DNA of 22,463 nucleotides from the NCBI GenBank assembly GCA_030041195.1, contig JASHOI010000195.1, positions 1-22,463 of the forward strand. Direction: 5' to 3'. Below the pieces are notes generated by a model. That model was not told the origin of the DNA, did not search any database, and worked only from the letters and a program-made list of their open reading frames with translations. The DNA comes from Streptosporangiaceae bacterium. Lineage in GTDB: Bacteria; Actinomycetota; Actinomycetes; Streptosporangiales; Streptosporangiaceae. This document shows, one piece after another, positions 3,185-22,242 of the stretch. The position numbers and the translations under genes are program-made. Each line of letters starts with the position of its first letter. Position 1 is the first letter of the stretch.

Positions 3185-4411
3185 GTGGCTGTTAAGCGGC
3201 ATGCTGAGGTGGCCGGGGCCGGGCTGGCCGGGCTGGCGATGGCGGCGGCGCTGGCGCAGCGCGGCTGGTCGGTACGGGTGCACGAGCGGGCCAGCGAACT
3301 GCGCGAGATCGGCGCCGGGATCTTTGTCTGGGAGAACGGGCTGCGCGCCCTGGAGGCCGTCGGCGCGTTCGCCGAGGCAACGCAGCGCTCGGAACGCGAC
3401 GACCGGTGGATGCTCTACGACGAGCGCCGCCAGCTGATCCAGACCGACTGGATGATCCCCGGAGTCCGGCTGCACACCATGCTCCGCACCGACCTGCACA
3501 AGGCGCTGGCCGGCGCCGCGGCACGGGCCGGGGCGGAGATCGTCACCAGCTCGCCGGTGACCGGGGCCGACCCGGACGGGACGCTGCGGCTCGGCGACGG
3601 CAGCCAGGTCACGGCGGACCTGGTCGTCGGCGCCGACGGGGTCTCGTCCCGGGTCCGGGACGCGCTGCCGATCGGGGTACGCAAGCGCGACCTGCGCGAC
3701 GGGTGCGGCCGGCACCTGATCCCGCGCAAGGCCACCGACCCGCGGAACGCCACCCTCGAGTTCTGGCAGGGCGGCCGGCGGGTTGGCATCGTGCCGTGCG
3801 CCCCGGAGTTCGTCTACGTCTACCTGTGCTGCCCCGCCAGCGACCGCCCGGGCACCGACCAGGCCAGCGACCGGGCGACCTGGACCGACAGCTTCCCGTA
3901 CCTCGACGACGTGCTCGCGCGGGTGCCGGACGGCGGGCGGTGGGCGTCGTTCACCGACGTGGTCTGCGACCGGTGGTCGGCCGGCCAGGTCGCGGTGATC
4001 GGCGACGCGGCGCACGCGATGTCGCCCAACCTCGGCCAGGGCGCCTGCGTGGCCCTGGCCAACGCGGTGGCGCTCGCCGACGCCCTGGACCGCCACCGCG
4101 ACGTACGCCGCGCGCTGCAGATCTGGGAACGCGCCGAACGCCCGATCGCCGACGCCACCCAGCGGTACTCGCGGCTGTACGGCGCCGTCGGCACGAAGTG
4201 GCCGACCAGCCTGCTCGGCGCGCGTTCCGCCCTCGTCTGGGGCCTGTCCCGCTGGAAGACCTTCCAGCGCCGGGTGAACGCGGCCGCTGTGCACGTGCCA
4301 TGGGACCTGACCGCGGGAGCGCCGCCGCGGCGGCACGCTCCGCTTCCCGAGCCCAGCGATAACGGCCGCCCGGCGGAGCAGGCTCCGCCGGCCAGCGTGC
4401 GGGCGGAGTGA
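3185..4411 (+). CDS. FAD-dependent aromatic-hydroxylase-type monooxygenase (first paralogue)
   Basis: 408 residues. This is a class A flavoprotein monooxygenase fold. The N-terminal Rossmann motif GAGLAGLA binds FAD, the DG motif GADGVSS has D151, and the GD motif GDAAHAMSPNLGQG spans 273-286. Such enzymes use NAD(P)H and oxygen to hydroxylate aromatic or heteroaromatic rings. The start is a GTG at 3185; no ATG or GTG lies in frame between it and the promoter, and the Rossmann strand follows within ten residues. No strong ribosome binding site precedes it. It is roughly half identical to the next gene by eye and carries a unique proline-rich tail of about 35 residues (APPRRHAPLPEP onwards). 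The gap to the next gene is 7 bp, so they are co-transcribed. Substrate unknown. Confidence 0.9.
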   Translation: MAVKRHAEVAGAGLAGLAMAAALAQRGWSVRVHERASELREIGAGIFVWENGLRALEAVGAFAEATQRSERDDRWMLYDERRQLIQTDWMIPGVRLHTMLRTDLHKALAGAAARAGAEIVTSSPVTGADPDGTLRLGDGSQVTADLVVGADGVSSRVRDALPIGVRKRDLRDGCGRHLIPRKATDPRNATLEFWQGGRRVGIVPCAPEFVYVYLCCPASDRPGTDQASDRATWTDSFPYLDDVLARVPDGGRWASFTDVVCDRWSAGQVAVIGDAAHAMSPNLGQGACVALANAVALADALDRHRDVRRALQIWERAERPIADATQRYSRLYGAVGTKWPTSLLGARSALVWGLSRWKTFQRRVNAAAVHVPWDLTAGAPPRRHAPLPEPSDNGRPAEQAPPASVRAE

Positions 4412-4418
4412 GTCGCAC

Positions 4419-5552
4419 ATGCGCAGCGCCGAGATCGTCGGAGCGGGCCTGTCCGGGCTGGCCACCGCGGCGGTGCTCGCGCGTCGCGGCTGGAGCGTGC
4501 GCGTGCACGAGCGAAGCGCTGACCTGCGCGAGATCGGCGCGGGCATCTACCTGTGGGAAAACGCGCTGCGCGCGCTCGAGGAGGTCGGCGCCTTCGAGCA
4601 GGTCGCCGCCGCCGGCGAGAACGTGCTCGACACCCAGTTGCTCGATCACCGGCACCGGCTGCTGCAGCGCCAGTGGCTGCGCGGCTCCCGGCTGTATACG
4701 GTGCTGCGCTCGGACCTGCACCAGGCACTGCGAACCGCCGCGGAGTCGTCCGGCGCCCGGATCGAGACCTCGTCGGAGGTGACCGGGGCGCGCCCGGACG
4801 GCGTCCTGACACTGCGGGACGGCTCGACGATCCGCGCGGACCTGGTGGTCGGCGCCGACGGAGTCGGCTCCGCGGTCCGCGGGTCGCTGGGCCTGACCCG
4901 CTCGGTGGTGGACCTCAGGGACGGGTGCGGCCGTCACCTGATCGAGCGCACGGCCGACGACCCGGTCGGCGCGACGTTCGAGGAATGGCACGGCGGCCGG
5001 CGGATGGGCGTGGTGCCGTGCTCGGCGAAGTGGACGTACATCTTCCTGTGCTGCCCGGAACGCGACGGCGCCGGCATCCGGCAGCATCCCTTCGACCCCG
5101 CGGCGTGGCTGGAGACCTACCCGCACTTCGCCAGCCAGCTGCACCGGATCCCGCGGGACGGCCCCGGCCGGTGGGCCCGGTTCTACGACGTGGACGCCAG
5201 GTCCTGGCATTCCGGCCGGGTGGCGATCATCGGCGACGCCGCGCACGCGATGTCGCCCAACCTGGGGCAGGCGGCGTGCGTGGCCATGGCCAACGCCGTG
5301 GCGCTCGGGCAGATGCTGGACCGGCGGCCGGTCACCGAGGCGCTGGCGCTGTGGGAGCGCAGCGAGCGGCCGATCACCAGCCGGGTTCAGCGGTACTCGC
5401 GCGTCTACGGCTGGGTTGGCACACACTGGCCGACCGCGGCGCTCGGCCTCAGGTCCTCGCTGGTGGCGGCCGTCGGCCGGTCCAAGCGCGTGCAGCGACG
5501 GATCAATTGCGGCGCCGAGCACTTCCCGGTGCCGGCGACGGCGGATCGATAA
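4419..5552 (+). CDS. FAD-dependent monooxygenase (second paralogue)
   Basis: 377 residues, of the same family and order of motifs as its upstream neighbour: GAGLSGLA near the N-terminus, GADGVGS in the middle and GDAAHAMSPNLGQA from 272. The GD motif ends GQA instead of the usual GQG, a small change near the flavin pyrophosphate. Long stretches match the first copy, for instance RGWSVRVHER, LREIGAG and LRDGCGRHLI, so the pair arose by tandem duplication followed by divergence. The two may form a heterodimer, act on successive intermediates, or accept different substrates; the sequence does not decide. The ATG at 4419 has GGAG at 4405-4408. The following permease begins 13 bp after the stop, confirming an operon. 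Confidence 0.9.
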   Translation: MRSAEIVGAGLSGLATAAVLARRGWSVRVHERSADLREIGAGIYLWENALRALEEVGAFEQVAAAGENVLDTQLLDHRHRLLQRQWLRGSRLYTVLRSDLHQALRTAAESSGARIETSSEVTGARPDGVLTLRDGSTIRADLVVGADGVGSAVRGSLGLTRSVVDLRDGCGRHLIERTADDPVGATFEEWHGGRRMGVVPCSAKWTYIFLCCPERDGAGIRQHPFDPAAWLETYPHFASQLHRIPRDGPGRWARFYDVDARSWHSGRVAIIGDAAHAMSPNLGQAACVAMANAVALGQMLDRRPVTEALALWERSERPITSRVQRYSRVYGWVGTHWPTAALGLRSSLVAAVGRSKRVQRRINCGAEHFPVPATADR

Positions 5553-5565
5553 CGGAGGGAAGCAG

Positions 5566-7191
5566 ATGGACAGCGTGAGCAACAGCCGGCTCGGCTCGGC
5601 GGGCAGCGCCCCGACGCTGTTCGCGCGGCAATCAACGGGCCTGGTCCGGGGCTGGTCGATCCGGGATTCGTTCATCTTCGCCTGCCTGGCGACCACGATC
5701 TCGCTGGCCTTTTACGAATTCACGTTCGGCGTGTTCGTGCCGCGGGGCCAGCTGATCACGTCGGTGATCATCACCGGCGTCTGGGTGAGCTTCCTGGTCA
5801 TCACCTACGCCGGGCTGATCTCGGTGATCCCCAGGGCGGGCGGCGACTACGTCTGGCAGAGCCGGCTGCTCGGCGGCCCGATCGGCTTCGTGATGTCGGG
5901 GACCGCGTACTGGTTCATCATCTGGCTCTGGGCGCCGATCTACGGCGCGATACTCAACGTCGAGGTGCTGCAGCCGCTGTTCGCGACCGCCGGCTGGCTC
6001 GGCGCCGCCACGTGGCTGTCCACCCACAACGGCATCTTCGTCGTCTCGCTGATCACGATCGCGCTGGCCGCGGTGCTGGTCTACATAGGGATGGCCGGGT
6101 ACGCGCGGATGCAGAAGTGGTGCTTCTACGGCGCGATCGTGGGGTTCGCGGTGATGGCCATCGTCCTGCTGGCGTCGAGCCGGGCCAGCTTCATCAGCGC
6201 GGTGGACCGCGAGGGGCACAGCCTGTTCGGCGTGAGCAACACCTACGCGGCGATCACCGCGGCCGGGGCCAAGCTCGGCGGCCCGTGGAGCCTGGGGCTC
6301 GGCCCGCTCGGACCGAGCATGCTGCTCGTGCCGATGATGATCTTCTACCTGATGTGGCCGAACTGGGGCTCGCCGCTCTACGGCGAGGTGCGCGGTGCCC
6401 AGGATTTCAAGCGGGTGTTCATCGGGATGTTCCTGGGCCTGTGGGCCACCGTCCTGATATCGGTGATCTTCCTGCTGCTCGCCGACAAGACCTTCGGGTG
6501 GAACTTCTTCAACAGCGCGAACGCCGCCTACTGGGCGGGCAAGTCCCCGATCCCGGTGTTCCCATACCCGGTGCTGATGGCGGGCTGGCTGGTGCACAAC
6601 GAGGCCTTCCAGATCGTCCTCATCCTGCTGATGAGCCTGTGGTTCTTCGGGTTCGTCGGCAACCTGTTCCTCGGCTCGACCCGGGTGATGTTCGCGGCCG
6701 CGTTCGACCGCGTCCTGCCCGACGCCGTGGCCGACGTGTCGGCCAAGCGGCACGTGCCGATGGTTGCCCTGGTGCTCATGCTCACCCCGTCGGTGGCGCT
6801 GAGCGCGCTGTACGCGTACTGGGGGCACTTCTCCACCTACACGCTGGACGCGGTGCTCGTGGTCGCGGTCAGCTACCTGGTCACAACGATCGCCGCGCTC
6901 GTGCTGCCGTGGCGCAGGCCCGAGCTGTGGCGTGCGTCGGCCGCGTCGCGGTACAAGGTCTTCGGCGTACCGCTGGTCCCCGCGGCCGCGGTGATCACCA
7001 TCGGGCTGTTCGCCTTCAACCTGTATGAGTGGCTGTCGAACAGCGTCTACGGCGTCAACAGCAACGCCTCGCTGATCTACATGGGGCTGATGTACGTGCT
7101 GGCGATCGCCATTTACGTGGCGGCCAGGCTGGTGCGCAGGCGGCAGGGCATCGATCTCGGCCTGATCAACAAGGAGATCCCGAGCTCCTGA
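5566..7191 (+). CDS. APC-superfamily amino acid/amine permease
   Basis: 541 residues, with about twelve hydrophobic segments over the whole length. The consensus APC signature IPRAGGDYVWQSR lies at 88-100, after the first two helices (transport core), and a FLGSTRVMFAAAFDRVLP segment in the later cytoplasmic loop is also typical of the family. It should import an amino acid, amine or related organic cation or zwitterion by ion or proton coupling in the cytoplasmic membrane. The start at 5566 is chosen because GGAGG (5554-5558) lies 7 nt upstream; a longer frame would extend into the preceding gene. Its place between two monooxygenases and an amidohydrolase suggests that it brings in the substrate of the pathway. 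The exact substrate cannot be read from the sequence. Confidence 0.88.
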   Translation: MDSVSNSRLGSAGSAPTLFARQSTGLVRGWSIRDSFIFACLATTISLAFYEFTFGVFVPRGQLITSVIITGVWVSFLVITYAGLISVIPRAGGDYVWQSRLLGGPIGFVMSGTAYWFIIWLWAPIYGAILNVEVLQPLFATAGWLGAATWLSTHNGIFVVSLITIALAAVLVYIGMAGYARMQKWCFYGAIVGFAVMAIVLLASSRASFISAVDREGHSLFGVSNTYAAITAAGAKLGGPWSLGLGPLGPSMLLVPMMIFYLMWPNWGSPLYGEVRGAQDFKRVFIGMFLGLWATVLISVIFLLLADKTFGWNFFNSANAAYWAGKSPIPVFPYPVLMAGWLVHNEAFQIVLILLMSLWFFGFVGNLFLGSTRVMFAAAFDRVLPDAVADVSAKRHVPMVALVLMLTPSVALSALYAYWGHFSTYTLDAVLVVAVSYLVTTIAALVLPWRRPELWRASAASRYKVFGVPLVPAAAVITIGLFAFNLYEWLSNSVYGVNSNASLIYMGLMYVLAIAIYVAARLVRRRQGIDLGLINKEIPSS

Positions 7192-7225
7192 CGCCCTGTC
7201 CGCACCAGACACACCGGAGGTCGAT

Positions 7226-8926
7226 GTGCAGGCGGTACCGGACATTAGCCCGGGTTCCGGAACGGGCCGTGTGGTCCTGATCGGCCGGGTACTGCCGATG
7301 GCGGGACAGCGGCGGTACCAGCAGGCTGTCGCGATAGCCGGCGACCGGATCGAGGCCGTGGGCGGCCGGGAGGTCACCGACGCCTACCGGCGGTGGGGCG
7401 CCACGGTGCTGGACTTCGGCGACCGGGCGATCCTGCCCGGGTTTGTGGATCCGCACGTGCACCTGGAGGAAGGCAGCCTGGCGCTTGCCCAGATGGTGGA
7501 CTGCCGGGTGCCGCGCTGCCGGTCGGTCGGCGACGTCCTGGAGACGCTGTCACAGGCCCGCGCGAACGTGGCGCCGGACGAGTGGCTGATCGGGCAGGCG
7601 AACCTGTTCTGGGACCAGAAGCTCGCCGACCGCCGGTTCCCGACGATGGCGGAGCTGGACAGCGTCAGCCGGACCAACCCGATCGTGATCCGTGCGGGAT
7701 CGCACCGCAGCGTGCTCAACAGCCGCGCGTTCGAGCTGGCTCAGCCCGGACGGCTGGACGGCCGGGAGGGGCTCACCGGCCGGGCGATCGTCGAAAGCGA
7801 CGCCAGCGGAGCGCCGTCCGGCGTGGTCGCCGAGATCGACCAGGCGCTGCCGATGCCAGCACCGGACCAGGGCGAGCTCGAGGCGGCGCTGCGACGCGGG
7901 ATCGCCGATCTGTTCACCCGGCACGGCGTCACTACCGTGGGCGAGATCTCCAACAGCCTCGACGGCCTGGCCGCCGCCGACGCCCTGCTCGCGGGCCCGA
8001 GCCCGGCGATCCGGGTGATCGTGCACCTGTGGAGCCCCGGCACGCTGCCGCTGCACGAGGCGTGCGACTGGCGAGCGCGACTGGCGTTCGCCGCCGCGCC
8101 GGACTGGCTGCGCGTCGAGGCGGTGAAGGTATTCGCGGACGGCGGGTTCTCGGCCTGCAACGCGGCCACACTGCAGCGGTACCGCGGCCCGCACGCCATC
8201 CACCCCGGGTCACGCGGCCAGCTGAACCTGCGGCACAGCTTCCTGACACACGCGATGGCCGCAACCGACGCGGCCGGGCTGCAGCTCGCGGTGCACGCGA
8301 ACGGGGAGCGCGCGCAGCTCGCCGTGTGTGACGCCGCGATCCGGGCGGCGGCCGAGATCGGCGCGACGCCCCGGGTCCGGCTCGAGCACGGCGGCAACTT
8401 CCTCACCCGGGACTCGACGATCGAGGCGTGGGAGAACGCGGGCGTCACCGCGCTCTCCCAGCCCGGCTTCCTCTACAACTTCTTCGGCGACTTCCTGCCC
8501 GACTACCTCGGCCCGGCCGGACTGCACGGCAGGCTTCCGCTGCGCAAGCTGCTGGACCGGGGCTGGCGCCCGGCCGGCAGCTCCGACCTGCACGTTGGCG
8601 GGGAGATCGGCGCTACCAACCCGCTGTTCAGCATCTGGTGCTGCCTGCAGCGGCGGAGCTTCCTGGGCCACACGGTGGAACCGGACCAGGCCATCGACAT
8701 CGACGAGGCGCTGCGCCTGCACACGATCGACGCGGCGGCGGCGCTCGGCGAGGCCGGATCGCGGGGCAGCCTCGAGCCGGGCAAGCTGGCCGACATCGCG
8801 ATCCTGGCCAGCGACCCGCGGCAGGCGGCCGCGGCATCGCTGCCGGACATTCCCGTCGACCAGGTTTTCGTCGGCGGCAGCCGGGTGTACAGCCGCGACG
8901 GCGCCGCCGAGCCGGTCGTGGCGTGA
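7226..8926 (+). CDS. Amidohydrolase_3 family metal-dependent hydrolase (YtcJ-like)
   Basis: 566 residues. It has the composite beta-sandwich and TIM-barrel layout of Amidohydrolase_3 (PF07969). Visible metal-site residues are the HxH motif in FVDPHVHLE (H77, H79), a lysine in VKVFADGGF (K301) in the position of the carboxylated lysine, H357 in AVHANGE, H388 in LEHGG and D454 in GSSDLHVG. Relatives include N-substituted formamide deformylases and other amide or cyclic-amide hydrolases. The start is GTG 7226 with GGAGG (7216-7220) 5 nt upstream; the overlapping ATG at 7224 is in a frame that soon stops. The gap to the permease is 34 bp. The likely role is hydrolysis of a C-N bond before or after ring hydroxylation. 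Family assignment is strong; reaction unknown. Confidence 0.88.
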   Translation: MQAVPDISPGSGTGRVVLIGRVLPMAGQRRYQQAVAIAGDRIEAVGGREVTDAYRRWGATVLDFGDRAILPGFVDPHVHLEEGSLALAQMVDCRVPRCRSVGDVLETLSQARANVAPDEWLIGQANLFWDQKLADRRFPTMAELDSVSRTNPIVIRAGSHRSVLNSRAFELAQPGRLDGREGLTGRAIVESDASGAPSGVVAEIDQALPMPAPDQGELEAALRRGIADLFTRHGVTTVGEISNSLDGLAAADALLAGPSPAIRVIVHLWSPGTLPLHEACDWRARLAFAAAPDWLRVEAVKVFADGGFSACNAATLQRYRGPHAIHPGSRGQLNLRHSFLTHAMAATDAAGLQLAVHANGERAQLAVCDAAIRAAAEIGATPRVRLEHGGNFLTRDSTIEAWENAGVTALSQPGFLYNFFGDFLPDYLGPAGLHGRLPLRKLLDRGWRPAGSSDLHVGGEIGATNPLFSIWCCLQRRSFLGHTVEPDQAIDIDEALRLHTIDAAAALGEAGSRGSLEPGKLADIAILASDPRQAAAASLPDIPVDQVFVGGSRVYSRDGAAEPVVA

Positions 8927-8977
8927 CAAGCCGCTGCCCGCGGGCCAATCGGCGCGGGTGGGCGTAGGTTACCGATC

Positions 8978-10021
8978 GTGGCATCTGTGCAGACGACCGG
9001 GAGACGGGAACCCGCGGAGTTCACCCGGCCGCGGCAGATCCGCCGGCTGCCGATCGGCGTGCCGCGGCCGCTGCGGCACACCACCGAGCTGAGCGAGAGC
9101 GACCGGGCGCTGATCCGGCTGCTGCAGACCGACGGGCGGATGCCGTACACCAGCCTCGCCCGGCAGCTGCAGATGAGCGAGAAGACGGTCCGGCGCCGGG
9201 TCGGCGAATTGCTCGCCGACGGCGTGATCGAGATAACGACCGTCTCGGATCCCAGCGCGCTGGGGTATGACGCGGTCGGCCTGCTGGCGATCGAGAGCGA
9301 CGGCTCCAGGTCGCTGCGCGGCCTGGCCCAGGATCTCGCCGAGCTGGACGCGGTGGACTACGTGGTCATCACCAGCGGCCGCTACCACCTGCTCGCCGAG
9401 GTGGTGTGCCCGGACATGGAGGACTTCCTCGAATTCATCGACACCTCGGTGCGCAGCATGCCCGGGGTCGCGCGGTGGGAGCACATCCCGTACCTGTCGC
9501 TGCACTACCAGCAGCCGCAGTGGGAGGCCGCGGCCCGGGCGCCGGACAAAGGCGCACCGGCCATCTCCAAGATCGACCTGGACGAGGTCGACCGGAGCAT
9601 TGTCCGGGAGCTGAACGCCGGCGGGCGGACCCCGTACCAGCAGATCGCGGCGCGGCTGGGGGTGTCCGAGGGGCTGGTCCGCCAGCACGTGAACCGGCTC
9701 AAGGCCAGCGGCGCGATCCGGGTGATGGCGCTGGTCAACCCGTACAGCCTCGGGTTCCGCACGATGGCGTGGCTGGGGATCACCGTGCACAGCGGCGCCC
9801 GGGTGGAGGACCTGGCCCGGCGGATCACCCGCTGCCGCGCGATCACCTATTTGGCCATCTGCGCGGGCCGCTTTGACGTGCTGGCCGAGGTCGTGTGTGC
9901 CGCGCCCGGCGAGCTGACGAAACTGATCGACGACGAGATCAGGCCGGTGAAAGAACTGGCTACCGTCGAGACGTTCCTGTGCCTCGACCTGTACTACCGG
10001 GCGCTGCGGCCGTCGCACTGA
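8978..10021 (+). CDS. Double-length Lrp/AsnC-family transcriptional regulator
   Basis: 347 residues, about twice the usual 150. There are two complete copies of the AsnC/Lrp unit: helix-turn-helix 1 at about 38-85 (LIRLLQTDGRMPYTSLARQL) and ligand-binding RAM domain 1 at about 98-178, then helix-turn-helix 2 at about 200-247 (IVRELNAGGRTPYQQIAARL) and RAM domain 2 at about 260-340. Lrp proteins sense amino acids or related small molecules, consistent with an amino-acid-type permease in the same operon. The GTG at 8978 has only a weak upstream site, and an N-terminal extension of about 37 residues precedes the first helix-turn-helix, so the exact start is less certain. It lies 51 bp after the amidohydrolase and most likely controls this cluster, perhaps through the palindrome at 3109-3123. 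Confidence 0.9.
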   Translation: MASVQTTGRREPAEFTRPRQIRRLPIGVPRPLRHTTELSESDRALIRLLQTDGRMPYTSLARQLQMSEKTVRRRVGELLADGVIEITTVSDPSALGYDAVGLLAIESDGSRSLRGLAQDLAELDAVDYVVITSGRYHLLAEVVCPDMEDFLEFIDTSVRSMPGVARWEHIPYLSLHYQQPQWEAAARAPDKGAPAISKIDLDEVDRSIVRELNAGGRTPYQQIAARLGVSEGLVRQHVNRLKASGAIRVMALVNPYSLGFRTMAWLGITVHSGARVEDLARRITRCRAITYLAICAGRFDVLAEVVCAAPGELTKLIDDEIRPVKELATVETFLCLDLYYRALRPSH

Positions 10022-14980: not shown

Positions 14981-15101
14981 ACGCCGATGGGTACTTCTAC
15001 CCCGGCCCTGCCAGCGCCCGGAAGGGGTAACGCGGCCCCTGCCGCGCGGCCAGCCCGGCGGCGCAACCTGGCAACGGCAGGCCGGGACCGGCCCGGCCTC
15101 C
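14981..15101 (+). promoter_or_regulatory. Leader element, copy A (upstream of the P-loop-like membrane protein)
   Basis: This 120-bp stretch has a related copy at 21519-21640. It contains a GGGTA/TACCC hairpin with CTTC loop (14989-15002), an AGGGG...CCCCT pair (15023-15040), a CGCGGC/GCCGCG hairpin with CCCT loop (15031-15046) that would compete with it, and a strong hairpin AGGCCGGG, ACCGG loop, CCCGGCCT (15079-15099). The last stem ends about ten bases before the GGAGA ribosome binding site at 15110-15114. It could act as an RNA leader or as protein-binding DNA. Confidence 0.5.
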
Positions 15102-15120: not shown

Positions 15121-17226
15121 ATGTCCTCCCGCATCCCGGCCCTGGCCAGGCCCGACGGTCCACAGCACGAGCCGGCCTCGGCCACGGGAATCCCGATGGC
15201 TGGAGATCGTGACATGCGCCGGCTGCTGGATCCCCCGGTGCGTTGGGGGTACGAGTATGTGGAGCCGGCCCGCCCCCTCCAGAGCCCGGACCGGCAGTGC
15301 CAACCGCTTAGGCGATCGCCGCGGATGGTCCCGCGCGCTCAGGCAGCCCGGCTGCCCCAAGCCGCAATCCTGGCCCCGATCGGCGCGGTGTGCGTATTCC
15401 TCATCGAGGTCTCGCTCGGAGTGGGCACCATCAAGGCCGCGAGGGGGCCCGCGCGGGTCGTCATCGCGGTTATAAGCCTGGCCTGCGCCATCATCGCGTT
15501 CCGCCTCGCACAGACGTGGTTGCGTTCACGCCGGGCGGATCAGCCGCGAGCCGCCGAACCGGTGATCGAGCGGTACGGCATTCCTCTGGTCAATGCCGGC
15601 GTCGCTTTCTTCTTCCCGTTCGTTCTGCTGCTCTTCGAGGCCGTGGGGGCGTGGCTGTGGATACTTGCCGGGCGCGTGCAGCTCGCCCCCGACCCGGCGG
15701 ACGTCAAGCGCGCGGAGGCCGAGTACGCATCGACGGTCGCTGCGTGGCAGCGCCGAATTGCGGAGTTCGAGGCCGCTGAGGCGCGGCGTTACGAGACCGC
15801 CGACCTGTGGTACCCGGTCGGTCCGTCAGCCGAGGCTCGAGTGGTCTGCGTGTTCGGCGGAACCTTCGTGTCCTGGACCTCGGCCCTGCTGACCCTGGGT
15901 TCGAGCATGCTCGGCTCCGGCGCACGCCTCTTGATCGCTGATTTGTCCCGTCGTGAGACGACCTCGCCGCTCCTCGAACTCTGCGAGCGGGTCTCCCTCT
16001 CGGCTGCGCGACTCGCGCTCCCGCTTCGCGAGGGCAGGGGGCGGTTGTTTGCCGAGTTGAGGTGGCAGGATCTGAGCTCCATCCTCGTTGAGGTGCTGCA
16101 CTCGGCGAAGGAGGATGCCGATGCGTCCCGCCGCGACCGCCAGGAGGATCAGGCTGTCATCCGGGAAGTAGCAGCGTGCCTGGACCAGTCCGGTCCCGTA
16201 TCGGTCGGGCGGCTGCGGCAGGCGCTGCGGGTCGTGCAGGGGTCCGATCGGGGCACGCCCGGTATCGCGCCCAGGGAATATGACGAGCTCACCAGGCTGT
16301 ACAACGAGGTTCAGCGCGAGCACGGCGGCGTCATGGAGCGGGTGACCCGGATTGAGCGCGCGCTCCGGGACTTCGAGGCGCTGGACGACACGCAGCCCGC
16401 TGGCTGCCGTCCCGAGGCTGTCCTTACCGGGGTCGCGCCGGCATCGGCCGGCCAGAGACCGCCGGAACTGGAGATCATTGAGGTGGACAAGCAGGCGGAT
16501 GATCTCGGCAACGACCAGCTGGTGGACCTGACTTTCCAGTTGTTGCTGCGGCGGGTGAGGCTGGGCTCCGCCAACGCCGACGTCCTGGTGATCCTTGGCG
16601 CGGACCGCATCCGGCGCGTCGCGCTCGAATCGATCGTCACCCATGCGCAACAGCGAGGGGTGCGGATCATCTTGTTCTTCGAGCATCTGCGGCGGGATGC
16701 CGTGGAGCTCGTCGGCACGGGCGGCGCCGCGGCCGCGTTCTGCACCCTCGGCAACCACCGCGAGGCGAAGGAGGCGAGCGATTTCATTGGTTCGGATTTC
16801 AGCTGGCAGGAATCGCAGCGGACGCAATCCGAGGGCAGGAACATGACCGAGACCTGGGGAGCCGAGTTCACCCGGGGAATGTCGCGTAACCTCGGGTTCC
16901 CGGGCGGGACCTCGACGACCACGACGGCGGGCGAGTCGCACAGCATGGCCGCCGGACGGTCCAGCGACCGATCGGTCGGTCAGCAGCGCGTTCGGGAACC
17001 GCTGGTCGAGCCGGAGGTCCTGATGGGGCTTCCCGAGACGGGCATGGTCTACGTCGAGGTCCGTCAGGCGGGCTGGCGAGACTTCAGGTTCGTCGACTGC
17101 AACCCGTATCGCCGGTATGACCGGCGTGTCGCCTCAGCAACCCGGCCACCGGCCGGCGAGCGCGCCATCGTGCATCGGGGGTCTGCAGCTGAGACGAACG
17201 CGGCCGTGGGGAAGCCGCGGCAATGA
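15121..17226 (+). CDS. Membrane-anchored P-loop-like protein with degenerate Walker motifs
   Basis: 701 residues. After a disordered N-terminus there are three hydrophobic segments at about 80-103, 110-134 and 154-184, then a predicted coiled coil (about 192-225) and a cytoplasmic domain. At the Walker A position the sequence reads VFGGTFVSWTSALL (245-258), lacking the GK[S/T]. At the Walker B position it reads VLVILGADRI (around 488-497), lacking the catalytic acid pair. The overall order (strand, loop, helix, later hydrophobic strand, then RIILFFEHLR) still looks like an ATPase fold. Residues about 565-625 are rich in Ser, Thr and Gly. From memory such proteins are widespread but uncharacterised in actinomycetes. 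GGAGA precedes the ATG by 6 nt. The stop overlaps the next start as ATGA, so translation is coupled. Likely a non-catalytic membrane partner of the following ATPase. Confidence 0.75.
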   Translation: MSSRIPALARPDGPQHEPASATGIPMAGDRDMRRLLDPPVRWGYEYVEPARPLQSPDRQCQPLRRSPRMVPRAQAARLPQAAILAPIGAVCVFLIEVSLGVGTIKAARGPARVVIAVISLACAIIAFRLAQTWLRSRRADQPRAAEPVIERYGIPLVNAGVAFFFPFVLLLFEAVGAWLWILAGRVQLAPDPADVKRAEAEYASTVAAWQRRIAEFEAAEARRYETADLWYPVGPSAEARVVCVFGGTFVSWTSALLTLGSSMLGSGARLLIADLSRRETTSPLLELCERVSLSAARLALPLREGRGRLFAELRWQDLSSILVEVLHSAKEDADASRRDRQEDQAVIREVAACLDQSGPVSVGRLRQALRVVQGSDRGTPGIAPREYDELTRLYNEVQREHGGVMERVTRIERALRDFEALDDTQPAGCRPEAVLTGVAPASAGQRPPELEIIEVDKQADDLGNDQLVDLTFQLLLRRVRLGSANADVLVILGADRIRRVALESIVTHAQQRGVRIILFFEHLRRDAVELVGTGGAAAAFCTLGNHREAKEASDFIGSDFSWQESQRTQSEGRNMTETWGAEFTRGMSRNLGFPGGTSTTTTAGESHSMAAGRSSDRSVGQQRVREPLVEPEVLMGLPETGMVYVEVRQAGWRDFRFVDCNPYRRYDRRVASATRPPAGERAIVHRGSAAETNAAVGKPRQ

Positions 17227-20200
17227 ACGCGAAGCTCACGGCACACTCGTTCATCCGGGTACTCACCGCTCCCGCGGCCGACGATGACGGCGAGGCGCCG
17301 CTTCGCCGGGCGATCGTCGCCGGGCTTCTCGACGCGGGAGTGCAGGACCGGCCGGTGGCAGCGGCCTGGATCAGGCCGGCCGCCGGGGCGCCGCTTCACG
17401 TCCTGATCGCCGATGGCCTCGAATCCGGCGCAGCGGAGCGCGAAGCCGAGCATCCCGTCACCCCGTTGCTGTTCCCGCTGGGCGCCACCGGCCGGGTCGT
17501 CAAGCCGGCCGAACTCGGCCAGCTCCTGGCCCCGTTCACGTCGTGGCTAGCGTGCGGTGGAGGCTTCGAGCCGCTGCTGGCCGACACCGAGGATCAGGGC
17601 CGCGCACTCGACCAGCGCTGGTCTGCCGCACCGTTCGACGACGTCGTCGGCTACCTCTCGCACCAACCGTTCGCCTGGGTCGTCGCGTGCACGCCGGTCC
17701 CGGGCCAGGCGGTACAGGATGAGCTCGACAACCTGCGCCGGGAGCTGTTCCGGCTACACCAGGCAGGCCGCCTCTCCGAGTCGGACTCGGTGAGACTGGA
17801 GCGTGGCCAGGCGTGGTTCCGTGAGCTTTCCAGGGCTGGCCAAGGCGGGGTCTGGGAGGTCGCGATCGCCGTCGGGTCGCCCGATAGGGGCAAGATCCGC
17901 AGCCTGGCAGCGATCTTGGCCACCGCGGCGGAGCAGTCAACCGCGAGCTACCGCATCCGTCCGCTCCGAGGTGATCCGGAGGGATCTGCTGACGGGGCGT
18001 TCGCCGCCGCCACGAACGGCGTGGCCGCGGCCGGCAGTGGCACCGGGGCGAGCGGCGGCGACCGGGTGCCGTTCCGCGCCACGACCCAGCTGGCCGCATC
18101 CCTCATCCGCCCGCCAGAGACCGAACTGCCTGGTGTTCGTGCCGTCACGCCGCCGTCATTCGACACCACACCGGAGTGCGATGATGGCCAGGCCGGCGCG
18201 GTGGCACTGGGAACCGTGCTCGACCGGTTCCTGCGCCCGGCCGGGACGCTCACGGTCAGCCCCGATACGCTCACCCGGCACGTGTTCGTGTGCGGCGCAA
18301 CCGGTGGCGGCAAATCCCAGACTGTCCGTACGCTCCTTGAGGCGCTGTCTCGTGGTTCGCCGCCGGTGCCATGGATGGTCATCGAGCCTGCCAAGGCCGA
18401 GTACGCAGCGATGGCCGGACGCCTGAGCGACCTGTCCGATGGTCACGTTCTGGTGATCAGGCCCGGCGATCCGCAGGCCGTCCCTGTTTCGGTCAACCCG
18501 TTGCAGCCCGCGTCGCTGGATCCCGGCGACCCCACCCGAAGTTTCCCGCTGCAGAGTCACGCCGACCTCGTCCAGGCCCTGTTCCTAGCCGCGTTTCACG
18601 CCGACGACCCGTTCCCGCAGGTCCTCTCCCGGGCTCTCACTCAGTGCTACGAGGCAGCGGGCTGGGATCTCGTGACCAGCGAGCCGATGCGCTCGTGGAA
18701 CCGGGCGACCGGTCAGCCGGCGCCGAAGGGCAGCGATCGGTCCCTGCCCCGGTACCCCACGCTCGGCGATCTCGCGGGCGCGGCGCTGCGCATCGTTGAC
18801 GAGATCGGCTACGGCGACGACATGAAGAAGAACGTCCGGGGATACGTGGATGTCCGCGTCGCAAGCCTGCGGCTCGGCACCCCTGGCCGATTCTTCGAGG
18901 GAGGCCACCCGCTCGATTTCGCTGCGCTCCTGCACCGCAATGTGGTCGTCGAGATCGAGGGCGTCACCAACGATCAGGACAAGGCGTTCGTCATGGGCGT
19001 CCTGCTCATCCGCCTCTACGAGCAACTGCTGCTGGAGAACAAGCACCGGCAGGCTGACCCCGCGACCCGCCAGCCGCTTCGCCATCTGACCGTGATCGAG
19101 GAGGCTCACCGGCTGCTCCGCAACGTCCCTCCGGACTCGCCCGCCGCGCACTCCCTTGAGTTGTTCGCGAGCCTTCTCGCGGAGGTGCGCGCCTACGGCG
19201 AGGGCATCGCCGTGGCCGAGCAGATACCGTCAAAGCTCATCCCTGACGTCATCAAGAACACCGCACTCAAGGTCGTGCATCGGCTCCCCGCCGCAGACGA
19301 CCGAGTTGCCGTGGGCGCCACCATGAACCTGACCGACGCCCAGTCGGAGTACGTGGTCACGCTCACCCCGGGAACTGCCGCGCTATTCGCGGACGGGATG
19401 GACCGGCCTGTGCTCGCGCGTCTTCCCGACGGCACCGCGCGTGAGTCAGCCAGCGGCCAGGCCAGCACGTTGCCGCTCGTCGCCGACGGACGCCGGAGCC
19501 GCTGCTGCGGCCACGAGTGCCAGGCCGGAAGTCCCTGCACGCTGAGCTCGATGCGCCATGCCCAGCGCTTCCTCGACAGCCACCCGGAACTGACGTTGTG
19601 GGTGGAGATGAGCGTCGCAGCACACGGCATCGGCGTCCCCGCGCCGGCACTCGCCGACACGCCGGCGATCCGCCGGCTGAAAGCCGCCATGCAGGCCGAG
19701 CCCCGGCAGGTCCAATGCGCGATCGCCCACGCGGCCGAGGCAGCGCTCGCCACCCGATACCACCGGCTCGCCGAGTTCTTCGACCCCGACGCGTTTGCCA
19801 GCCACCTTGCCCGGGTGCTCACCGGCATCCTCACCGGGGACGGCGCGAATTCCGGCTGTATGCAGGACGCAGGCCGGTGGCGCTTCGGGCACCAGCGATA
19901 CAACGACATCAGATCCGGGCTGCTGAGGCAGCCAGAGCGAGCCCAACACGAGGCTCTCATCGCCAAGGCGCGCGAGCGCGGCCTGGATCTGGAAGGCGAC
20001 TCCCCGATGGAGGACTATTCCGCCGTTGCGTGGCTGCCTGCGAACCGGATCGACGCCGACCAGATGCGGCTGATGTTGTTCGGCGAGCAGACACCCGCGC
20101 TCGCGGTGAGCGCCAGCACCCGGCTCGCCGGTCATGGCGAACCCGAGAACCGCACGCGTAAGGCAGTCGACGACCTGCTGCTCTGGGAAGAGCCCGGGCA

Positions 20201-20261
20201 CAAGTCGTCGGTCCTCGACCAGCTCTTCCCCAAGACGACATCCGCTCTAGCCGGAAGGTGA
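17223..20261 (+). CDS. HerA/VirB4-like ATPase with Cys cluster and extra C-terminal domain
   Basis: 1012 residues. Residues 1 to about 270 form an N-terminal region with a stretch resembling the barrel domain of VirB4/TraC-type ATPases (WVVACTPVPGQ, then WEVAIAVG). A Gly/Ala-rich linker follows. The motor core has Walker A GATGGGKS at 358-365 (K364), Walker B LTVIEEAHRLL (E626, E627), and the late HerA motifs AEQIPSKLIPDVIKNTALKVVHRL and VVTLTPGTAALF. After the core there is a CCGHECQAGSPC cluster (C761, C762, H764, C766, C772), probably zinc-binding. A helical domain of about 240 residues follows (AIAHAAEAALATRYHRLAEFF ... WRFGHQRYNDIR) that I do not recognise. HerA/VirB4 proteins are hexameric pumps that move DNA or protein. 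The coupled upstream membrane protein suggests a membrane-docked motor. No relaxase or NurA-type nuclease is visible nearby. Confidence 0.85.
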   Translation: MNAKLTAHSFIRVLTAPAADDDGEAPLRRAIVAGLLDAGVQDRPVAAAWIRPAAGAPLHVLIADGLESGAAEREAEHPVTPLLFPLGATGRVVKPAELGQLLAPFTSWLACGGGFEPLLADTEDQGRALDQRWSAAPFDDVVGYLSHQPFAWVVACTPVPGQAVQDELDNLRRELFRLHQAGRLSESDSVRLERGQAWFRELSRAGQGGVWEVAIAVGSPDRGKIRSLAAILATAAEQSTASYRIRPLRGDPEGSADGAFAAATNGVAAAGSGTGASGGDRVPFRATTQLAASLIRPPETELPGVRAVTPPSFDTTPECDDGQAGAVALGTVLDRFLRPAGTLTVSPDTLTRHVFVCGATGGGKSQTVRTLLEALSRGSPPVPWMVIEPAKAEYAAMAGRLSDLSDGHVLVIRPGDPQAVPVSVNPLQPASLDPGDPTRSFPLQSHADLVQALFLAAFHADDPFPQVLSRALTQCYEAAGWDLVTSEPMRSWNRATGQPAPKGSDRSLPRYPTLGDLAGAALRIVDEIGYGDDMKKNVRGYVDVRVASLRLGTPGRFFEGGHPLDFAALLHRNVVVEIEGVTNDQDKAFVMGVLLIRLYEQLLLENKHRQADPATRQPLRHLTVIEEAHRLLRNVPPDSPAAHSLELFASLLAEVRAYGEGIAVAEQIPSKLIPDVIKNTALKVVHRLPAADDRVAVGATMNLTDAQSEYVVTLTPGTAALFADGMDRPVLARLPDGTARESASGQASTLPLVADGRRSRCCGHECQAGSPCTLSSMRHAQRFLDSHPELTLWVEMSVAAHGIGVPAPALADTPAIRRLKAAMQAEPRQVQCAIAHAAEAALATRYHRLAEFFDPDAFASHLARVLTGILTGDGANSGCMQDAGRWRFGHQRYNDIRSGLLRQPERAQHEALIAKARERGLDLEGDSPMEDYSAVAWLPANRIDADQMRLMLFGEQTPALAVSASTRLAGHGEPENRTRKAVDDLLLWEEPGHKSSVLDQLFPKTTSALAGR

Positions 20262-20265
20262 ACAC

Positions 20266-21480
20266 ATGACTGGGATAGACGCCCCGCCGCCCCCACCCCC
20301 GCCGGATCCACCGGATCACCCGCAGGCGGCGCGGCAGATCGAGGACTCCATCGCCAAGCTGCCAGCCAGCGACACGGTCAAGGCTGACTCGCAGGCCTAT
20401 TCGGACCGGTTCGACGGGCAGCACCCGGCGGCCGACGGCGCCGGCGAGAGGCCGGAGCCCGGCCGGGCCAGCGCGCCTGCCGGTGACGCGCCAGCCGCGG
20501 ACACTCGCTCCCTGATGGACCGGTGGGAGGACAGCGAGGACCGCATCATGGCCCGGGACATCGTGGCCAACCGCCAGGAGATCGACATCTTGCGCCAGCA
20601 GGGCAACGAGGAGGCGGCGCGGCAGATCGAGGACTTCATCGCCAAGCTGCCAGCCAGCGACGCCGTCAAGGCCGACCCACAGGCCTACCTGGACCGGGCC
20701 GACGGCCAGCACCCGGCGACAGACGCCGCCGCCGAGCGGCCGGAGCCGGAGCGTGATCAGTCACCGACCACCGCTGAGACGAACCGGCCGGACGCGGCCC
20801 CCGACAATGGGCCGATCATGGTCGTCCACAATCCCGACGACCTGCCTCCCGATATCAGACAGCAACTGGACGAGTCGGATATCAACGCTATGAACTGGGA
20901 CGACGGGGTCGGGCTTTATAACCATGTCATGTCTGGCGGAGAGTCGTTCGATAAATTCTCCCACTTCGATTGGAACGACACCGGCTCCACGGCCGAACGA
21001 GCCGAGCGCGCTCTTTCGAGCGAAGAGTTTGGGCAAATAAAGTGGGCGCGGCCTGAGGGTAGCGGTGAGGATGCCGTCTTCGACGTTATACACGACATTC
21101 TGCATACGCCCGAAGGAAAACAGATGACGGATGACGAGATCGAGAAACTCGCCGAGGCGCTCGTGTCCAGCGACCCGCACGAAAGCCTTGCCCTTGCCCG
21201 GAAGTTCGATATGGACCCGGGACGGTGGGAGGCGCGCAATGCGCGGTACACACTTACCTTTGAAGGCGGAGCCCGAGCCGCATACCTCAGATCTACGGCC
21301 GCGCCCCAACTCGACAATCTCGAAGATCCCGCCAGCCCTAGGCGCCTTCCAGGGGGAGGCGAACAGGTCCGCTTCCTCAATTACGACGTCGGCCGCAGTA
21401 ATCTCACCGTCGCACCGGTGGGAGGACGAGTCCTGCTCGAGGGTCAGCTGGAGTGGAGATACCGGGACCGTAACCCGTGA
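20266..21480 (+). CDS. Proline-rich protein with internal repeat and foreign-looking C-terminal domain
   Basis: 404 residues; ATG 20266 with GGAAGG (20252-20257) 8 nt upstream, four bases after the ATPase stop, so part of its operon. It opens with a proline run, followed by two copies of a 46-residue unit (about 20-65 and 116-161: AARQIED-IAKLPASD-VKAD-QAY-DR-DGQHPA) separated by a charged helix. The C-terminal part (about 185-404) is acidic, has no membrane segment, and contains DVIHDILHTPEGKQMTDDEIEKL-type helices followed by strands (GGRVLLEGQLEWRYRD). I do not recognise a domain in it. Hand counts give 53% GC for 20881-20940 and 52% for 21061-21120, against 65% for 18901-18960 in the ATPase gene. 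The modular layout suggests a substrate or effector of the ATPase, but this is inference. Confidence 0.7.
   Translation: MTGIDAPPPPPPPDPPDHPQAARQIEDSIAKLPASDTVKADSQAYSDRFDGQHPAADGAGERPEPGRASAPAGDAPAADTRSLMDRWEDSEDRIMARDIVANRQEIDILRQQGNEEAARQIEDFIAKLPASDAVKADPQAYLDRADGQHPATDAAAERPEPERDQSPTTAETNRPDAAPDNGPIMVVHNPDDLPPDIRQQLDESDINAMNWDDGVGLYNHVMSGGESFDKFSHFDWNDTGSTAERAERALSSEEFGQIKWARPEGSGEDAVFDVIHDILHTPEGKQMTDDEIEKLAEALVSSDPHESLALARKFDMDPGRWEARNARYTLTFEGGARAAYLRSTAAPQLDNLEDPASPRRLPGGGEQVRFLNYDVGRSNLTVAPVGGRVLLEGQLEWRYRDRNP
20324..20748 (+). repeat. Two-copy direct repeat, 137 bp each, within the proline-rich protein gene
   Basis: Copies at 20324-20460 and 20612-20748 are offset by exactly 288 bp (96 codons) at both ends, so they align without net indels. 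They differ at scattered positions (for example DTVKAD against DAVKAD and SDRFDGQ against LDRADGQ). This is an intragenic duplication that has begun to diverge, and it keeps the reading frame. Confidence 0.85.
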
Positions 21481-21666
21481 TTGGCCTACTACCGCCCGCC
21501 GCCCGGAAACTGGATGGAACGATCGATTAGGCACTTCTACCCCGCTGCTGCCTCCGATGGAAAGGGGCAGTTGTACCTCTGCCTTACGCGCCCCTGCATA
21601 GCACAGTCTGTGATCAGACGCCGGGAACGGCCCGGCCTGGTGGTCCAATCTGGACAACCGCTATAG
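21481..21666 (+). other. Short open frame of doubtful coding value between operon genes
   Basis: A 61-codon frame could start at a TTG directly after the stop of the 404-residue protein, and it ends with TAG at 21664. It has no ribosome binding site at the right spacing, the start codon is poor, and the translated product (LAYYRPPPGNWMERSIRH ...) resembles nothing I know. It also overlaps leader copy B at 21519-21640, whose sequence is conserved at DNA level with copy A, where no equivalent gene exists. I regard it as non-coding. Confidence 0.25.
21519..21640 (+). promoter_or_regulatory. Leader element, copy B (upstream of the two-helix membrane protein)
   Basis: It is related to copy A at 14981-15101. 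The 40 bp at 21531-21570 match 14991-15030 at 28 positions without gaps. An AGGGGC/GCCCCT stem (21563-21568 with 21590-21595) corresponds to the AGGGG/CCCCT pair in A. The hairpin GCCGGG, AACGG loop, CCCGGC (21620-21636) matches A at 19 of 23 bases, and the spacing to it is conserved to one base (49 against 48). The element ends 37 nt before the ATG at 21678. Confidence 0.5.
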
Positions 21667-21677
21667 AGGGAGGGACC

Positions 21678-22106
21678 ATGCCAGTCAATCCGCGCAGCAG
21701 CGCCTGGGGCGACCAGCCATTTGCCGGGTCAGGTTGGGCGTCCAACGATGATGCCGCCCGAGCCGCAGGGATGATGATGCGAAGCGGTTTGGTGCCATCG
21801 TGGATGGCACCGCTGACGCCCGAGCAGGCGAAACGCGCCTACAGGCGGGCTCAGGCGCGCAGGATGTACTGGGTGATCTGTTTCGGGTTCCTGGGCATCG
21901 CGATGGCCATAGCGGCACTGTCGCTGCTGCTCTCGCATCCGGTGAATGCGCTGGTGGGGCTCGGCGTTAGCCTGCTGCTCCTCGGATTGGCCGTCCGGCA
22001 GTACCGGAACTTCGCGCGCTGGCAGAAGACCGACCCGGTGGACTACATCTGGGCAGTACACCCCGACCGCGGAGTCCGGCAACCGACCAGCCGGAATGAT
22101 CACTGA
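21678..22106 (+). CDS. Two-helix membrane protein of unknown function (142 aa)
   Basis: 142 residues; ATG 21678 with GGGAGGG at 21668-21674. A soluble N-terminus of about 60 residues (SSAWGDQPF, methionine-rich AAGMMMRSG, then the charged TPEQAKRAYRRAQARR) leads into two adjacent membrane helices at about 64-84 and 87-106. A short tail holds FARWQKTDPVDYIWAV. Both ends probably lie on the same side of the membrane. I do not recognise the family. It is separated from the 404-residue protein gene by 197 bp containing leader copy B, so it probably has its own control shared with the first gene of the module. By position alone it could be an immunity or anchoring partner for the preceding protein. 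A strong hairpin follows its stop. Confidence 0.65.
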   Translation: MPVNPRSSAWGDQPFAGSGWASNDDAARAAGMMMRSGLVPSWMAPLTPEQAKRAYRRAQARRMYWVICFGFLGIAMAIAALSLLLSHPVNALVGLGVSLLLLGLAVRQYRNFARWQKTDPVDYIWAVHPDRGVRQPTSRNDH

Positions 22107-22150: not shown

Positions 22151-22242
22151 TGGCGGAGGCTCGGGGATTTGAACCCCGGATGGGCGTAAACCCAAACCGC
22201 ATTAGCAGTGCGGCGCCATAGACCGGACTAGGCGAAGCCTCC
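22151..22242 (-). tRNA. tRNA-Ser (anticodon GCU)
   Basis: Read on the minus strand from 22242, the gene starts GGAGGCTTCGCCTAG and ends AGCCTCCGCCA. The acceptor stem GGAGGCT/AGCCTCC is perfect, the discriminator base is G, and CCA is encoded. The anticodon loop is CTGCTAA, with GCT at 22206-22204 reading AGC/AGU codons. A long variable arm (GGTTTGGGTTTACGCCCATCC region) and the TTCAAAT T-loop confirm the class II serine type. Its 3' end faces the ATPase module, the usual target side for integrating elements. Confidence 0.95.

Follow-up and report, generated by a model that had tools for sequence, protein, structure and literature searches.

A HerA-type motor, a membrane-anchored pseudo-ATPase and an exchangeable effector slot: a candidate polymorphic-toxin system of actinomycetes

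Introduction

HerA-family ATPases act as hexameric pumps. What might such a motor be moving when its gene overlaps that of a membrane protein whose own nucleotide site has been lost, and is followed by a gene that differs from one relative to the next? The question is raised by a 22,463-nucleotide (nt) stretch of DNA from a Streptosporangiaceae bacterium (GenBank assembly GCA_030041195.1, contig JASHOI010000195.1), the whole of which is called the window here. An earlier reading made from the letters alone (the sequence-only reading) had seen in it a membrane-docked, HerA-like system of four genes, and all four open reading frames (ORFs) were recovered on the + strand between 15121 and 22106, with products of 701, 1012, 404 and 142 amino acids (aa) designated P0001 to P0004; compared loci carry L-numbers, and P0180 and P0181 are homologues of P0003. 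The third gene, whose nature that reading missed, is a variable effector slot, and it is this gene that points to the function: with a probability of about 0.58, the locus is an actinobacterial polymorphic-toxin system built on a two-protein ATPase core, with its cargo exported via P0001.

A motor and its partner without a P-loop

Judged from its sequence, P0002 (17223..20261, +) is a member of the HerA/FtsK superfamily: it matches DUF87, the HerA central domain, above the cut-off (E 4.4e-7; 30.7 bits vs 23.2), and both its Walker A motif (GATGGGKS, residues 358-365; 18294..18317, +) and its Walker B motif (LTVIEE, residues 622-627; 19086..19103, +) are intact. The pattern GxxxxGK[ST] is present in all 22 HerA-family rows, and in a newer Pfam release PF27615 is listed on P0002 and on nearly all of the 120 homologues listed. 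The C-terminal part of the family also carries three nearly invariant cysteines, CxxxCxxxxxC (P0002 residues 762, 766 and 772), which possibly bind a metal.

The stop codon of P0001 (15121..17226, +) and the start codon of P0002 share an ATGA (17223..17226, +). Helices are predicted in P0001 at residues 78-99, 110-137, 148-164 and 166-184, and a hydropathy scan finds stretches starting at 76, 106 and 152, plus one at 241 that falls within the ATPase core. Where a Walker A loop would stand, the protein reads FGGTFVSWT (residues 245-253; 15853..15879, +; VFGGTFVSWT with the preceding residue), which has no lysine, and VILGADR occupies the place of the motor's VIEEAHR. This loss is a property of the family, the P-loop being kept in 0 of 26 diverse rows and in 0 of 42 rows of a second count. 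The predicted fold of P0001 is that of the VirD4/TrwB/VirB4 ATPases, so that the structural model provides both the fold and the membrane anchor of a coupling protein, without its functional nucleotide-binding P-loop. No Pfam family is matched at E 0.1, and a profile search reaches TrwB only at E 0.17. The sequence-only reading, which had described a degenerate P-loop membrane protein translationally coupled to a HerA motor, thus proves correct on both genes.

Are the two genes kept together elsewhere? Three partly overlapping genome samples were searched: 396 actinobacterial genomes from the phylum, and 197 and 150 from two orders. With HerA hits divided, after the scores were seen, into high (at least 693 bits) and weak (at most 397 bits), the high-scoring ones occurred in 4, 7 and 6 genomes, respectively, every one of which also has a P0001-family hit, including one genome among the seven with a partial HerA (G683) and one among the six with P0001-type fragments only (G775); G294 and G819, whose P0001-family hits are weak, were counted as lacking the family. 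Adjacency was judged in 20 loci that have gene calls and a HerA of this clade (the window, L045, L047-L049, L101-L108 and L110-L116). L109, which has no gene calls, entered only the whole-genome co-occurrence, L050 lies outside the gene comparison and L051 outside the 20 loci, and for L114 the annotation and the gene caller place the start of HerA differently. Both core genes lie within the same locus in 18 of these 20, in four of which (L048, L049, L102, L103) they are not same-strand neighbours. In one exception, L047, the P0001-type genes are on another contig; in the other, L116 (an Embleya plasmid, 3700-5454 and 6821-9769), HerA has no P0001-type gene and is preceded, on the other strand, by a canonical TraG/VirD4-type gene (TraG-D_C, 9.2e-29) that keeps its P-loop lysine (GPRTGKT). 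Equal lengths of the source records of P0001 and P0002 homologues hint at pairing in six cases, without proving it, and one further record (3273) is too short for both. The conserved core of the locus is therefore the pair P0001 and P0002, and conserved neighbourhoods, which the sequence-only reading had proposed as a check, bear out the linkage of these two.

Relatives of either protein also occur outside this arrangement. A P0001 homologue (49%) in a Solirubrobacteraceae metagenome-assembled genome (L001:9971-11986) has an in-frame TGA, marking either a decaying gene or an assembly error, and a search of that genome gave no high-scoring HerA. An orphan P0001-family gene is present in Actinoplanes (L002:9707-11659); a different motor may serve this orphan and those of four more genomes. 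L051 (9232-11742) carries a HerA of a second, weaker subfamily (262 bits); its neighbour is a protein of 358 aa in which two stretches are hydrophobic, and the locus has no P0001-type gene.

The gene after the motor

The sequence downstream of HerA could be compared in 17 loci with a full-length HerA and readable downstream sequence (the window, L045, L047-L049, L101-L103, L105-L108 and L112-L116). In 14 of them HerA is followed by a gene in the same direction whose product, mostly an acidic one, is of toxin type or unassigned, and the slot gene overlaps HerA or starts less than 60 bases after it in 13 of the 17; in L048 the gap is 283 bases, and in L106 a 71-aa ORF comes directly after HerA, followed by an overlapping 436-aa gene. 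Above their Pfam cut-offs, the slot proteins carry a calpain-like protease domain, Peptidase_C2, in L048 (7e-11) and L102 (1.6e-9), ADPrib_exo_Tox in L049 (3.5e-28) and L112 (1.7e-24), and RHS repeats with DUF6531 in L101 (2.8e-71). The protein of L103 just passes for RelA_SpoT (27.7 bits vs 27), and that of L114 falls below the same cut-off (21.0 vs 27) yet shares 62% identity with the L103 effector across 349 aa. L113 gives a weak NCBIfam match (20.9 vs 230) and, by eye, a GHSLGA lipase-type motif, with an ankyrin-repeat gene next to it; in L117 a HerA remnant is followed by another Peptidase_C2 protein. Pfam assigns no domain to the slot proteins of the window, L045 and L105-L108.

Some loci have more than one gene of interest behind the motor. 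L108 has two tandem proteins after HerA (6892-8765) with a common ISQGEWR N-terminal stretch, a Pro-rich start and no recognised domain, and in L045 the second gene past the slot gene encodes a DUF6883 protein (6008-6559; 5e-20), possibly a second cargo or a partner.

What makes these genes look like a set is the way in which their ends are exchanged. In the HerA tree, the proteins of L048 and L103 form a sister pair, and they are 84% identical; the effectors of these two loci match over residues 1-60 (57%), with no other BLAST match at E 1e-3, and one ends in a calpain domain, the other in RelA_SpoT. The RelA_SpoT tip of L103 in turn recurs in L114, where the cores are far apart (HerA 45% identical, P0001-type proteins 30%), and two genes behind it recur as well, one for a protein of 83/94 aa (58%), the other for an HD_4 hydrolase (67%). 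Likewise, the ADP-ribosyltransferase tips of L049 and L112 (36%) are accompanied by related 119/134-aa partners (29%, E 4e-12). Partner genes that recur with the same tip type across divergent cores indicate that partners follow the tip and not the core; this co-variation was found for the RelA_SpoT and ADP-ribosyltransferase types, for which an immunity role is putative, and no common partner gene was found for the calpain type. Exchangeable tips behind a common leader amount to polymorphic-toxin behaviour, and this combination of a constant N-terminal part with different C-terminal toxin domains is seen in relatives (L048/L103 and L103/L114), not in the window itself.

The leaders have features of their own. 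In ten effectors, with leader ends chosen by hand, Pro, Glu and Asp make up 34-62% of the leader vs 18-27% of the rest. A start of the form MS-x(0,1)-[IVL]-[DY] is found in 10 of 18 slot proteins (P0180, P0181, L104 and L117 included) vs 2 of 336 other called genes, one of the two being a sensor histidine kinase (L104:7074-10052), and a looser pattern that admits P0003 (MTGID) in 12 of 18 vs 6 of 336. The motif was drawn from the same, partly related sequences on which it was tested, and its p value therefore overstates the case.

P0003 (20266..21480, +) occupies this slot in the window, starting 4 bases after P0002. Its Pro-rich start, MTGIDAPPPPPPPDPP, resembles those of P0180 and P0181 (MSIDNPQPPPRPPDPP and MSSIDAPKAPPPPPDPP), and is followed by a repeated module, a 136-nt direct repeat whose two copies (20324..20459 and 20612..20747, both +) are 88% identical. 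Residues 186-404 (about 220 residues, with an approximate boundary; 20821..21480, +) form the candidate toxin tip; this part is conserved in P0180 and P0181 and has no Pfam or NCBIfam match. A protein search found 3 homologues among 7995 candidates scored, and, to judge from record lengths, a HerA homologue accompanies P0180, and homologues of both HerA and P0001 accompany P0181. No solved structure was matched by the P0003 profile at E 1, and no partner gene was identified for it. The guanine-cytosine (GC) content drops to 0.63 in 21001-22000 from 0.68-0.71 in 17001-21000, which together with the repeat agrees with an earlier description of this protein as repeat-containing with a foreign-looking C-terminus.

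How the system might work, and what speaks against it

It is conceivable that these parts form a simple machine. P0002, hexameric by analogy, would supply the energy, and P0001, its nucleotide site lost, would serve as membrane dock and substrate receptor. The cargo would be the product of the gene after the motor, composed of a short N-terminal signal (often of the MS-x(0,1)-[IVL]-[DY] form), a Pro/Glu/Asp-rich and probably disordered leader, and, at the C-terminus, a toxin that can be exchanged. Driven by the motor, the leader and after it the tip would be threaded to the membrane at P0001, or through it, and the toxin would thereby reach neighbouring cells; the producer would be protected by cognate partner (immunity) proteins, whose genes often follow the cargo gene. 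P0003 would be such a cargo with a tip of unassigned type. The presence of an RHS effector among the relatives, and the VirD4-type fold of the motor's partner, weigh towards export. One may go further and ask, tentatively, whether this is an undescribed, minimal two-ATPase type of protein secretion in Gram-positive bacteria, in which a HerA motor, working against a membrane-embedded, dead VirD4-fold twin, would recognise a short N-terminal tag and a disordered acidic/proline leader and deliver swappable toxins, with no other part of a type IV or type VII apparatus needed; the answer is somewhat doubtful.

Several findings weigh against the export of toxins by this pair. The template modelling scores (TM-scores) of the fold matches of P0001 are modest (among the best twelve, 0.31-0.38 by query and 0.41-0.60 by target), and profile-profile comparisons of its family with P0002 and, by hhalign, with the TraG-type protein of Embleya are not significant, so that the kinship of P0001 to VirD4 and VirB4 rests on predicted structure. 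P0003 has no recognised toxin domain, and its structural model is poor (mean predicted local distance difference test score, pLDDT, 45.5). L001, L002 and 5 further genomes have P0001-family genes but no high-scoring HerA, 7 genomes have weaker HerA relatives (157-397 bits) but no P0001-family hit, and 3 of the 17 loci (L047, L115, L116) have no effector-like gene after HerA. Finally, no recognised channel component accompanies the core pair among the neighbour genes, which were scanned in part, and this weighs against a full secretion machine being encoded in the locus.

Alternative explanations

Could the pair instead act within the cell that makes it? In the main competing explanation, which is unlikely but deserves attention, the locus would serve intracellular defence or be a toxin-antitoxin system: HerA and its membrane partner would sense phage or incoming DNA and unleash the effector in the same cell, as in HerA-SIR2 and HerA-DUF4297, and the small partners would be antitoxins. 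Toxin-antitoxin pairs of RelA/SpoT toxins and HD hydrolases are indeed known, an ABC-three-component system is found near L114, and the solved structures matched include, besides several HerA hexamers, HerA-effector defence complexes. The family models, however, divide: the mad8 and HerA models of PADLOC match P0002 (best 2.3e-14), but NCBIfam HerA_antiphage (NF042943) scores 44.5 bits against a cut-off of 800. The HerA-SIR2 and HerA-DUF4297 pairs are not known to include a conserved membrane protein of VirD4 fold, and the RHS effector of L101 and the long exchangeable leaders suit export better than a response inside the cell.

The folds of both core proteins are those of DNA-pumping families; might it not be DNA that is moved? 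Motor and coupling-protein-like partner would then carry out conjugation-like transfer or uptake, with the toxin genes as passengers that stabilise or protect the element. This would fit the homologues found on plasmids typed MOBP, the TraG-type gene upstream of HerA in L116, and the NCBIfam hits for CedD and TraC, both below cut-off (52 bits vs 600 and 12.8 vs 567). Passengers, however, would not need the leader that the effectors have in common, the slot gene overlaps HerA or lies within 60 bases of it in 13 of the 17 loci, and no recognised transfer gene was seen in the window or in the neighbour families scanned, which did not cover all genes; this explanation is accordingly improbable. 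More improbable still is that the core pair has a general envelope role and the variable genes merely insert alongside: a common leader with different tips in close cores, overlapping start and stop codons and co-varying partners all argue against it, even though L115 and L047 have no effector after HerA and P0001 relatives exist alone. Polymorphic-toxin export by the core pair thus remains the preferred explanation.

Neighbouring genes and other features of the locus

The fourth gene, P0004 (21678..22106, +), begins 197 bases after P0003. It has the two hydrophobic stretches expected of the two-helix membrane protein first described (the scan was made with a shorter start) and no relative among the called genes of 24 other loci; that it may be an immunity protein is only a guess from its position. 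With P0004 lacking relatives in the compared loci, the unit comes down to the two genes of the core, a variable gene in the effector slot and a fourth gene without an assigned place. The sequence-only reading, which took all four genes as a unit, therefore holds for the core pair, which mostly travels together, and not for P0004 or the variable third gene.

Its claim of shared leaders was well founded. A leader element upstream of P0001 (14990..15027, +) recurs upstream of P0004 (21530..21567, +; 74%), as does a second block (15081..15099 and 21620..21638, both +; 95% over 19 nt), and the two regions (14990-15099 and 21530-21638) align in parts. GGNACTTCTACCCC occurs exactly twice, at 14990 and 21530; allowing at most 2 mismatches gives 3 matches, a number reached in 0 of 100 shuffles. 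Control by the large regulator upstream of P0001 was also proposed and is unsupported, nothing having been found that links it to these genes. This protein (1077 aa from its first start, 988 aa by gene call) has cyclase and LuxR-type domains above the Pfam cut-off and AAA/STAND matches below it. Directly after P0004 lies a tRNA-Ser(GCT) gene on the minus strand (22151..22242); tRNA genes are a common border of mobile islands.

A Pfam scan of P0001 to P0006 and ten further window ORFs (metabolic, transport and regulatory genes, and two without a match) found no nuclease, relaxase or type IV gene, and P0001, P0003 and P0004 gave no Pfam match that passes its cut-off. The earlier statement that such genes are missing is accordingly right at the level of Pfam, but the predicted VirD4/TrwB/VirB4 fold of P0001 means that a type IV-secretion-like component is present in the locus after all. 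Clustering of the called genes of 24 loci and the window yielded the core, effector and partner families, an M48 peptidase, LuxR-type regulators and several families found in 2-3 loci; the neighbour families scanned, which did not include all genes, match ABC transporter, WhiB/AbiEi-like or methyltransferase families or nothing, and none is a recognised part of a type IV secretion system (T4SS). In four loci (L048, L049, L102, L103) the M48 membrane peptidase is encoded next to the P0001-type gene; it could take part in processing. Beyond their effector genes, L048 (17211-19915) and L103 (15056-17775) have a common gene block, one gene of which has a WhiB/AbiEi-like match; the block may reflect neighbourhood synteny or be part of the system. 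Another gene common to these two loci encodes an unassigned protein of 231/217 aa, with five hydrophobic stretches in the L048 copy.

Relation to known systems and significance

Among characterised conjugation and secretion loci none emerged as a clear match; one that did would have overturned the sequence-only reading. Which known systems, then, come closest? Polymorphic toxins combine a common N-terminal trafficking part, an exchangeable C-terminal toxin and adjacent partner genes, and include RHS and ADP-ribosyltransferase types (Zhang et al. 2012, PMC3482391), the same architecture as that of the relatives' effectors and partner genes. The export routes named in the relevant passages of that article comprise the type II, type IV, type V, type VI and type VII secretion systems (T2SS, T4SS, T5SS, T6SS and T7SS), Photorhabdus virulence cassettes (PVC) and others, and a HerA plus pseudo-coupling-protein core is not among them. 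P0001 resembles the VirD4-type coupling proteins (TrwB, Cag-beta) and VirB4 in its predicted fold, N-terminal hydrophobic helices and helical insert, but differs from them in having neither the Walker A lysine nor a Pfam match, and no further T4SS gene is recognised in the window. The type VII ATPases EccC/YueA are more distant, with P0002 scoring 11.9 bits against a cut-off of 509 for EccCa (TIGR03924), and no WXG100 or LXG domain was found in the slot proteins scanned against Pfam. The HerA-SIR2 and HerA-DUF4297 antiphage pairs share a HerA-family motor beside an effector gene; the present locus type differs from them in its family score far below cut-off, its membrane pseudo-ATPase and its swappable toxins with partner genes.

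Streptomyces alarmone synthetases of the RelA/SpoT type, without a signal peptide and in conserved gene clusters, have been described, and one sentence of the same report places that of S. albireticuli beside genes named TrwB, TrwK and TrwI (Ahmad et al. 2025, PMC12691689). Perhaps the same system was observed there independently, although a pseudo-ATPase, a leader and swapping go unmentioned in the passages on these clusters. Apart from this remark, no description of a HerA and pseudo-coupling-protein pair with toxins was seen among the articles examined in a literature search (preprints excluded); other contexts of HerA/FtsK proteins are treated in PMC12857230 (a T4SS review), PMC9503650 and PMC12839542, as far as the relevant parts of these articles go.

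If the proposed explanation is true, actinomycetes, including Streptomyces with plasmid-borne copies, would own a toxin-handling machine that joins HerA/VirD4 pumps with polymorphic toxins, and a function would be given to a large family whose members, among the homologues listed, are now unnamed or called 'ATP-binding', 'HerA-like' or 'uncharacterized'. It would also show a pump working with a conserved dead twin and provide an N-terminal tag that can be tested directly. Since Streptomyces strains that carry the system are in culture, the question is open to plain genetics. What the locus suggests is a means, little described so far, by which soil bacteria handle toxins and probably export them.

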